From positions 1-64,000 of the IMG/VR virus record IMGVR_UViG_3300030329_006583: a stretch of DNA of 64,000 nucleotides, one strand, 5' to 3'. Every line of letters begins with the position of its first letter. Position 1 is the stretch's first letter. This DNA comes from a virus. Below, piece after piece: positions 35,907-38,499 of the stretch. The notes beneath the pieces were generated by a model, which saw nothing but the letters and a program-made list of their open reading frames with translations, was not told where the DNA came from and searched no databases. The position numbers and the translations under genes were made by a program.

Positions 35907-36236
35907 TCAACCCATTACTTTCAAGGCCCATGAAAAAAACGCCATCCCAAATTGAACAACGGCAAACACGGTAATGGCCCTAGTTTTAAAAATCTTTAAA
36001 CCTTCAACTTCGCCAATTATTTCTTTTAACTGGGTCGGGGAACATATTTCATCCATGGAGGCCTTCCAATTTCGAAGTTCATCAACACGATCTTCCCTTT
36101 CTCGCATACGGGCAATCTCTTGTTTAAGTTCTTGAACCTCGTCACGAAGGCTCTCAATACCTGAGCCTAAAGTTTCCAATTCTTTTAAAACCAGACGTGA
36201 ATATTCATTCCACCCATTTTGATTACCATTACTCAT
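35907..36236 (-). CDS. Coiled-coil protein with C-terminal membrane anchor
   Basis: This 109-residue protein has a heptad-rich helix (about 12-60, with SLRDEVQELKQEIARMRE), a short linker and one hydrophobic segment at about 86-106 (RAITVFAVVQFGMAFFSWAL), leaving almost nothing after it. The topology is that of a tail-anchored protein with the coiled coil inside the cell. Its start overlaps the stop of the PAS-domain gene by 8 nt with GGGGGA in front, so the two are co-translated. Holin-like, spanin-like or signalling-anchor functions are all possible; the sequence does not decide. Confidence 0.75.
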   Translation of the reverse strand: MSNGNQNGWNEYSRLVLKELETLGSGIESLRDEVQELKQEIARMREREDRVDELRNWKASMDEICSPTQLKEIIGEVEGLKIFKTRAITVFAVVQFGMAFFSWALKVMG

Positions 36237-36792
36237 CTAGCATCCCCCGCTCTTTCAATAATTTCCTTAAACGACTAGCATCCAAGGCATCCTGTAAAGC
36301 TGCCGCTGCACTATGCGTATTACCAGAATTATCAATGATTTCCTTTGCCTTTTGAATATTATGCAACATAATAGAATTAGAAGTAATATCCCACGCTATT
36401 CCTAAAATTCCCGCGATATTATTTTCAACCTTTCTAGGTACTAATTTGCACCAAAAAAGTTTTGTTTCATATTTAACAAAATAAGTTACCACCTCATCAT
36501 TAAATGCTTGTTCATGACGTTTAATAGATTCATCCCTTAATTCCGGGCATTCAAACATCTCCTCCAAGGTGGCCGGCGACTGGCACGTAAATGCATTTCC
36601 ATGTTTCGATAAAACTGTATGATCTTTGCCAATGAACCACATCGTCACAGGTACCGGAAAATTTGAGAAAAAATCTTCAAACATCCTAAAGTCTCGTTTT
36701 AATTGATCATCCCTGTCATTAAGTTGATCACATAACCGACGAAGCTTTTCAATATTTTTATTAGGTTTTGTTTTTTTTGATGAAAGTTCCAT
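36229..36792 (-). CDS. PAS-domain protein
   Basis: This protein of 187 residues has an N-terminal helix (about 10-40) leading into a PAS fold at about 40-140: FFSNFPVPVTMWFIGKDHTV starts the domain and the LVPRKVENNIAGILGIAWDI stretch is the classical PAC-type closing strand. A helical tail follows (RLRKLLKERG). PAS domains bind ligands or mediate dimer contacts; there is no kinase, cyclase or DNA-binding domain attached. I start at ATG 36792, because a longer open frame to 36855 runs through a clear terminator. No good ribosome-binding site is seen. It overlaps the coiled-coil membrane protein gene, so the pair probably acts together. Confidence 0.8.
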   Translation of the reverse strand: MELSSKKTKPNKNIEKLRRLCDQLNDRDDQLKRDFRMFEDFFSNFPVPVTMWFIGKDHTVLSKHGNAFTCQSPATLEEMFECPELRDESIKRHEQAFNDEVVTYFVKYETKLFWCKLVPRKVENNIAGILGIAWDITSNSIMLHNIQKAKEIIDNSGNTHSAAAALQDALDASRLRKLLKERGMLDE

Positions 36793-36817
36793 GAAGATAA
36801 ATATGGAACTCAAAACG

Positions 36818-36853
36818 AAAAAAAAGTGCGGTGGTAAAAAATTACCACCGCAC
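36818..36853 (-). terminator. Intrinsic terminator after the tandem virion proteins
   Basis: A perfect 12-bp stem, GTGCGGTGGTAA (36826-36837) with TTACCACCGCAC (36842-36853), has a 4-nt loop and eight U after it on the minus strand (36818-36825). It begins 17 nt after the stop of the last of three tandem paralogues. The symmetric arms could also work weakly in the opposite direction. Confidence 0.95.
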
Positions 36854-36869
36854 ATTATTAACTTGAATG

Positions 36870-37358
36870 TTAAACGGCTAAAATTGCATTGGCATTGGTA
36901 GATTGAGAAGTGACAATATAATTTGTACCATCACTATATAATGTTGCCATATCACCGGCAACACTTGGTGCAGAAACATCAAACCTAAGGGTTTGATTCC
37001 CTGTTAGGCCGTCGGAATTAGCTCCCCCAACAATATTAATTGTAATAAAATTATTGGTAGTTGTTGTTTCTTCAACATCTAAATCATTGCCCGGTACAGC
37101 GGTAAGCATGATCGAACAATGAAAACCAGGAACTGCACTAGCCAGGGGCAATTTTATTTTCTGCGAAGCTGCATTACCTGAAACGCTGACAATACAACCA
37201 CTATCTCCAGCACCTAAGGTTAAATCACCACTAGTGGCGGTATGACTAAAAACCTTTGCGGTTCCCCCTTTCACAACAGTGTTACCGAAGTCGATACCGG
37301 TTCCTGCTTGTGTATACAAACCCTTTTTAGACGAATATTTTACTTTTACATTTGGCAT
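36870..37358 (-). CDS. Tandem virion protein 3 (putative head decoration)
   Basis: This 162-residue protein shares the start MPNVKVKYSSKKGLYTQAGT and the overall strand pattern with its two upstream neighbours, but is the most diverged copy. The fold looks all-beta, rich in Thr, Ala and Gly (GDLTLGAGDSGCIVSVSGN at about 45-63), like decoration or fibre-type proteins. AGGAG precedes ATG 37358. The gene is the last before a strong terminator. Location just after the major capsid gene suggests a capsid-surface protein made in high amounts; direct evidence is lacking. Confidence 0.7.
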   Translation of the reverse strand: MPNVKVKYSSKKGLYTQAGTGIDFGNTVVKGGTAKVFSHTATSGDLTLGAGDSGCIVSVSGNAASQKIKLPLASAVPGFHCSIMLTAVPGNDLDVEETTTTNNFITINIVGGANSDGLTGNQTLRFDVSAPSVAGDMATLYSDGTNYIVTSQSTNANAILAV

Positions 37359-37371
37359 TTTTTATCTCCTG

Positions 37372-37851
37372 TTAAGCTGCTGTAATATTAGAGCCAGCAC
37401 TTGAACCGGCTTGGACATAGTAAAGTGTTCCATCGCAGAAAATCCTGGCTCTATCACCAGCCACCGCTGCGGCTGTGGCAAATGTAAGTGTCGTACCTGA
37501 ATCTGACGCCTCTGTCGCTGCACCACCATCTATACAGATCACTTTAAAGGTACCACCGGTAAATGTTACATTACCGCCCGGGGTGTCCGCTGCATAACAT
37601 ACGTCACAATACCATCCTGCACCTGCTGTTGTTGCGGATGGTAAAACACAAGCGACGCCGCCTGTTGAACTGGCTATAGAAATAATTATTCCTGAATCTC
37701 CTGCGCCGAATGTAATACCGCTAGCGGCATCTGCAGTCGTAATTGAGCGCACTGGTCTCAACATACCGCTCATACTATTACCCCCAAATTCAATCCCACT
37801 ACCTGCTTCTTGATAAAGGCCTTTTGACGCGCTATATTTTACTTTTGGCAT
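37372..37851 (-). CDS. Tandem virion protein 2 (putative head decoration)
   Basis: This 159-residue protein is closely related to the copy upstream: MPKVKYSASKGLYQEAGSGI, GGNSMSGMLRPVRSITTADA, a GAGWYCDVCYAA segment and the closing ARIFCDGTLYYVQ are shared with few changes. All-beta composition, no known enzyme motif. GAGGAG lies seven bases before ATG 37851. A 21-nt remnant of a further N-terminal copy lies just upstream at 37868-37888, showing that the cluster grew by tandem duplication. Confidence 0.72.
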   Translation of the reverse strand: MPKVKYSASKGLYQEAGSGIEFGGNSMSGMLRPVRSITTADAASGITFGAGDSGIIISIASSTGGVACVLPSATTAGAGWYCDVCYAADTPGGNVTFTGGTFKVICIDGGAATEASDSGTTLTFATAAAVAGDRARIFCDGTLYYVQAGSSAGSNITAA

Positions 37852-37867
37852 GATCTTTCTCCTCGTT

Positions 37868-37888
37868 TTTATATTTTAGTTTTGGCAT
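37868..37888 (-). pseudogene. Remnant N terminus of a tandem virion-protein copy
   Basis: In the 49-nt gap between copies 1 and 2 the minus strand reads ATG and six codons for M-P-K-L-K-Y-K, the same first seven residues as copy 1 (one synonymous change). It then runs straight into the ribosome-binding site of copy 2. It is out of frame with copy 2 and looks like the scar of an unequal duplication. Confidence 0.55.
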
Positions 37889-37900
37889 TTCAAATTACCA

Positions 37901-38386
37901 TTAAGATGCTGTAATAATGCCAGCAGCTGTAGCTGATGCCATCACATAATAAAATGTACCATCACACCAAACGCGTGCCATATCACCAGCAGTACCACCA
38001 CCTGCCATTGAGAGAGTGGTGCCAGAATCTGGGGCATTTGTGGATGTGCCACCATCAACTTGTATCACTTTAAACGTTGACGCAGGACTAGTGGTTGCAA
38101 TCACATTACCACCCAATGAAGTAGCTGCGTAACATATATCACAATGCCACCCTGCACCCGCTGTTTCTGCGGATGGCAAAACAATGGCAACATTTCCCGC
38201 AGCACTAACCAATGACACAATAATCCCACTATCGGCGGCACTAAGTGTGACACCGGCTGAAGAATCTGCAGATGTAATTGAACGAACAGCCTTCAATCCA
38301 CCGGACATATTGTTCCCGCCTAATTCAATACCGCTACCTGATTCTTGATAAAGGCCTCGCGAGGGTTTATATTTTAATTTTGGCAT
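37901..38386 (-). CDS. Tandem virion protein 1 (putative head decoration)
   Basis: This 161-residue protein starts MPKLKYKPSRGLYQESGSGI at ATG 38386, which has AAGGAG seven bases upstream; an earlier in-frame start lacks such a site. It shares the GGNNMSGGLKAVRSITSADS, AGAGWHCDICYAA and ARVWCDGTFYYVM segments with copy 2. The protein is small and Gly/Ala/Thr-rich and lies right after the capsid terminator. A promoter is expected in the 114-nt gap downstream of that terminator, but only a TATAAT box with a poor -35 is visible. Confidence 0.72.
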   Translation of the reverse strand: MPKLKYKPSRGLYQESGSGIELGGNNMSGGLKAVRSITSADSSAGVTLSAADSGIIVSLVSAAGNVAIVLPSAETAGAGWHCDICYAATSLGGNVIATTSPASTFKVIQVDGGTSTNAPDSGTTLSMAGGGTAGDMARVWCDGTFYYVMASATAAGIITAS

Positions 38387-38499
38387 AATCTTTCTCCTTG
38401 CTCCCAATGATTCCGGTTTCTCGTGGGTGTCGAGCGATTATATTAAACCGGGCCTGCGTATAATTAGTTAACCCAACCAGGGACTTACCTTCAAATAAT

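Follow-up and report, generated by a model that had tools for sequence, protein, structure and literature searches.

XhlA-type lysis accessory proteins consist of a small coiled coil followed by one C-terminal transmembrane helix. In the RexA/RexB system of phage lambda, two genes encode a cytoplasmic sensor and a membrane effector. Large, strictly lytic phages are usually viewed as running a fixed programme. A phage-encoded PAS protein has been described in phage VP882, where VqmA is a quorum-sensing receptor (PMC8284805).

The locus analysed here lies in a 64-kb stretch of DNA (the window), which is part of a virus record of 267,118 bases. Its late region is of the T4 superfamily, with genes for a gp23-type major capsid protein (5.5e-76), head-tail adaptor, tail tube, baseplate hub and tape measure. 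The fold, the coupling of the genes and their conservation support the presence of a PAS sensor and a tail-anchored coiled-coil protein in a late transcription unit of their own, composed of the following features:

36229-36792, minus strand: PAS-partner gene (187 aa), an open reading frame with ATG at 36792; PAS fold by AlphaFold2 and Foldseek
36661-36759, minus strand: N-terminal adaptor helix, residues 12-44, with the motif L..L.DRD.QLK.D...F
36388-36660, minus strand: PAS core, residues 45-135, from the AlphaFold2 model, Foldseek and the alignment
36250-36384, minus strand: C-terminal helices, residues 137-181, with a conserved SR at 173-174
35907-36236, minus strand: coiled-coil protein gene (109 aa), an open reading frame starting 8 nt inside the PAS gene
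36045-36218, minus strand: long coiled-coil helix, residues 7-64, from model and alignment, with the NQNGWNEYSRLVLKELE motif
35922-35978, minus strand: predicted transmembrane segment, about residues 87-105, hydropathy 1.84, with an invariant Gln95
36797-36804, minus strand: late-promoter-like motif ATATTTAT, at -12 to -5 from the ATG
36826-36853, minus strand: intrinsic terminator between the decoration/capsid genes and the PAS/coil pair

The 187-aa protein had originally been predicted to carry a PAS domain. An AlphaFold2 model computed from an alignment with 22 relatives had a mean pLDDT of 84 and the PAS order of elements (a five-stranded sheet and a helical connector), comprising an N-cap helix (residues 12-44), two strands (49-55, 59-65), short helices, three further strands (102-108, 111-122, 125-135) and C-terminal helices. 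Foldseek matches in the PDB at E ≤ 1e-3 were mostly PAS sensors (Rv1364c, BvgS, WalK, DosP and phage VqmA), and the best viral structural match carries the name 'PAS domain'. No PAS family scored in a Pfam search with the 187-aa protein, PHROGs returned no PAS match, and a sequence search of solved structures with either protein of the pair yielded chance matches only. Among orthologous partners from other phages, by comparison, a PAS_3 match (9e-18) passed the cut-off, and a PAS_9 match (9e-6) narrowly missed it. Taken together, the modelled topology, the Foldseek matches and the Pfam-recognised PAS domains in orthologous partners argue against the absence of a PAS fold; the model thus confirmed the 187-aa protein as a predicted PAS-fold protein that was missed by Pfam.

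In 16 relatives of the window type, the PAS core residues F45, P46, P48, V49, W52, G65, H93, W134 and D135 were invariant and C82 nearly so. H93 and C82 are candidate pocket residues, and a heme or redox role for them is only a thought. The domain is flanked by helices alone, with no HTH or other Pfam domain. The adaptor-helix motif was found, whole or in part, in partners with or without PAS. Use of the start codon at 36792 was supported by conservation among relatives, and the dN/dS of the PAS-partner gene ranged from about 0.06 to 0.25 when comparable relatives were paired, revealing strong purifying selection.

Purifying selection was equally evident for the coil protein (dN/dS 0.03-0.2), the fold of which consists of two long helices (residues 7-64 and 67-108). 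W9, E11-Y12-S13, W57, K58, S66, P67 and Gln95, the latter within the membrane segment, were identical in 31/31 aligned members. The single hydrophobic segment at residue 87 was called transmembrane from its hydropathy, and a hydropathy screen of the 64-kb window revealed the coil protein to be the only credible small membrane protein therein. Searches of Pfam and PHROGs gave generic coiled-coil matches below the cut-off. The family phrog_31732, which was seemingly colinear with the coil protein, was discarded, as its matches across nine records amounted to no more than a coil stretch in one of them.

The two genes overlap by 8 nt (36236 versus 36229) on the minus strand, and this overlap together with conserved adjacency bears out the proposed translational coupling of the PAS gene to the gene of a small membrane protein. 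Equally, the strong terminator thought to cut the pair off from the capsid genes was recovered upstream of the pair as a hairpin at 36853-36826 with 12 pairs and a T run, the folding energy of which was -22.2 kcal/mol compared to -5.3 in shuffles (z -7.2). A search of Rfam gave no match. After the capsid gene, three tandem paralogues sharing the motif MPK.KY...KGLYQ..G are located at 36870-38407; they are probably decoration proteins, and their copy number varies in relatives. Some relatives contain tandem major capsid genes, two per locus (L021:2552-7361; L022:36-3518; L026:3264-7347).

T4 late promoters have the consensus TATAAATA at about -13 to -6. A motif of the form ATA[TGA]TTA[TG] starts 12 or 13 nt before the ATG of the partner gene in 18 of 26 distinct upstream regions and 16 nt before it in one more, with a chance expectation at that place of 0.003 per region. 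Of the 20 instances found in the 100-nt upstream regions, just one has a different position. Within 70 nt upstream of the genes of this phage, ATATTTA occurred 17 times versus 2.9 expected, corresponding to a 5.9-fold enrichment. Since the motif lies at the distance of a T4 late promoter, transcription would be expected to begin with the ATG itself; this positional reasoning suggests leaderless late mRNA in these phages.

A search for relatives of the coil protein in IMG/VR retrieved 61 and subsequently 389 sequences; the latter include the same phage from several samples, so that 75-76 distinct sequences were analysed. Among 84,980 prokaryote genomes of GTDB, one contained a relative. This sole copy (L142, QCKH01000014.1) is located on a 32-kb, phage-fragment-like contig of a Prochlorococcus single-cell genome; the contig may hint at the host or, more probably, stems from a co-sorted phage. 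A tblastn search of 50,697 phage records with both proteins and several relatives revealed nothing convincing, the single match in a Mycobacterium phage being to the coil only.

For 66 of 67 distinct coil genes, a gene ended directly upstream, and nearly all of these encoded recognisable partners (the partner in L054 was taken as a 144-aa open reading frame). Conversely, 40 window-type PAS loci were found with a narrowed PAS alignment, one of which ends at a contig end; in 39/39 assessable loci the coil gene followed directly downstream, at -28 to +4 nt and mostly overlapping or abutting. Each of 19 carrier records contained one coil gene. In L043 and L044, the coil gene has no recognisable partner and follows a gene whose product shows a GNAT-like stretch at its N-terminus, implying that the partner is not always needed. 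From these sequence comparisons, the PAS/coil pair, first noticed in a single phage, is a conserved module of hundreds of environmental phages, widespread and with PAS as an optional part.

The module is mobile and was found in several unrelated neighbourhoods. In the group of the window, it lies between capsid and neck genes, which would be the expected location if the two were ordinary neck or head-assembly proteins with a chance PAS-like fold. This reading, akin to the role in tail or head assembly originally considered, is very improbable. In 38 of 48 loci having both capsid and adaptor genes, the capsid-neck interval is without the pair, which is present in the remaining 10. Nine records (65-257 kb, possibly incomplete) lacking it in this interval did not have it elsewhere either, as determined with a coil profile that matched 19/19 known carriers and, thus, performs as a search tool. 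Moreover, phages sharing many genes with the record of the window carry the pair among ThyX, glutamine synthetase, MutM and DNA polymerase genes. The pair is, therefore, not conserved with the head-neck gene set, and its lack in relatives with the same head genes, along with its several neighbourhoods, points to an accessory regulator. The capsid-neck interval of relatives contains other accessory genes instead. Among the proteins encoded there are Tubulin/FtsZ-like ones (L198:11100-12395; L235:12085-13395), of which that of L198 matches the PhuZ family phrog_4733 at 6e-4.

A comparison of the two halves revealed the membrane half to be near-invariant, while the partner keeps its N-terminal helix (L..L.DRD.QLK), with a weaker motif in short forms, and varies thereafter. 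It continues as the divergent window-type PAS, as a PAS_9-like domain (L054-L056, L142), as PAS_3 (L057-L061) or without PAS, in which case the partner is 58-106 aa long. In a phylogenetic tree calculated for the coil protein, the presence of PAS changes at least 6 times and the neighbourhood class at least 12 times; this tree is based on few columns, some of its branches are long, and the neighbourhoods were only coarsely labelled. The constant coil, the changing partner domains and the tree imply that the conserved membrane component takes its input from a sensor that can be exchanged or dispensed with.

There is about an even chance, in our judgement, that the two genes encode a late-expressed, membrane-tethered sensory complex, which is favoured by the PAS fold, near-obligate pairing, the contrast between a constant membrane half and a changing sensor half, strong purifying selection, a single copy per record, varied neighbourhoods, and a terminator and promoter-like motif belonging to the pair. 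The constant component would be the tail-anchored coil with a cytoplasmic N-terminus and one C-terminal transmembrane helix, probably oligomeric via the coiled coil and the invariant membrane Gln. The cytoplasmic partner would dock by its conserved N-terminal helix, so that the proteins may interact via two conserved helices, and where PAS is present, its ligand, redox or cofactor state may alter the coiled-coil arrangement. PAS would, thus, be an exchangeable input. Since the pair is retained in many phages that lack its PAS domain, the core function would need the adaptor helix and the membrane coil alone. The output is expected to act at the inner membrane during the late phase of infection and would most likely concern the time of, or readiness for, lysis or the entry of further phages. 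This arrangement suggests that some state of the cell is sensed by the phages in late infection; PAS domains can, however, serve dimerisation alone, which is a point against sensing. A more specific version, put forward tentatively and as less likely than not, is a new class of signalling system in large lytic phages, in which a near-invariant coil effector accepting interchangeable sensors (several PAS types or none) would use ligand or redox state, possibly through the conserved PAS His and Cys, to settle a late event at the membrane, for instance when lysis occurs.

Interference with two-component or chemoreceptor signalling of the host, where PAS and coil would enter mixed assemblies with host sensors, is decidedly improbable. 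The combination of PAS and signalling helix resembles the architecture of histidine kinases without the kinase domain, but no component of host sensors resembles the constant half, and many partners are without PAS. Somewhat less improbable, yet still unlikely, is superinfection exclusion or self-protection in the style of lambda RexA/RexB, with a cytoplasmic sensor triggering a membrane effector. The two-gene layout of sensor and membrane protein would fit, as would the accessory, mobile nature of the pair and its single copy per genome; against this, the coil has one transmembrane helix instead of multiple RexB-like segments, and late expression would be late for excluding phages.

If the sensory complex acts on lysis, the coil would be an XhlA-type or antiholin accessory, and the PAS partner would delay or trigger lysis according to the cell state. 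Because lysis timing would be one among several outputs open to the favoured sensory complex, our confidence in the one overlaps with that in the other. That the pair times lysis, as originally suggested, is possible although rather doubtful, given that no consistent tie to endolysin genes was found. The late promoter-like motif before the pair agrees with it, as does the coil, a small single-pass membrane protein with no second of its kind in the late window. In one lineage only, an endolysin with Amidase_2 and PG_binding domains is encoded a few genes upstream of the pair; in two other records, a gene of the same type is 38-45 kb away, and the record of the window does not have it. Profile searches of the full 267-kb record for Amidase_2, Phage_lysozyme and SLT gave no match, extending the earlier remark that the window lacks a standard endolysin. 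Holin and XhlA families did not match the coil protein significantly, with generic Pfam coils below the cut-off and few, weak PHROG holin/hemolysin matches. A lysis cassette around the pair is, hence, not supported, considering that the record shows none of these endolysin families and the amidase is adjacent in one lineage only.

Elsewhere in the record (196395-197000, minus strand), a protein with a signal peptide and a lysozyme-like stretch (ESG...AIGILQQ) is encoded close to small membrane ORFs (195968-196120 and 197336-197644). The protein had no match in Pfam, PHROGs or the PDB; together with the neighbouring membrane ORFs, it is a candidate for the lysis genes of the phage, judged from sequence features.

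Should the sensory complex prove true, many uncultured phages, equipped with this conserved late module and its exchangeable sensor, would be gauging the cell ahead of the final step. As neither half has a convincing relative in the searched records of cultured phages and the coil is without a named family, an entire family of environmental proteins would thereby be given a hypothesis that can be tested, and the pair is small enough for expression and immediate testing. A description of the partner pair, of the interchangeable sensor or of their place in large T4-superfamily phages was not found in the open-access literature. PAS sensors in phages are already known; the coil partner and the interchangeable sensor in large T4-superfamily phages appear to be new.

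Compared with these known systems, the likeness to VqmA lies in a phage-encoded PAS sensor protein, its structure (7dwm) being among the Foldseek matches. VqmA, however, belongs to a temperate phage and binds DNA as a transcription factor, whereas the pair described here has no DNA-binding domain and comprises a membrane-coil partner. With the Pfam families PAS_3, PAS_9 and PAS_4 the fold is held in common, and orthologous partners match PAS_3 and PAS_9; unlike the PAS proteins of Pfam, the window protein is fused only to the adaptor and C-terminal helices and not to a kinase, cyclase or HTH. XhlA-type proteins have a layout like that of the coil protein, yet no XhlA match at cut-off was obtained in Pfam or PHROGs and no holin/endolysin cassette surrounds the pair. 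RexA/RexB has a similar two-gene layout, from which the pair differs in having no visible sequence relation, another membrane topology and a location in the late region.
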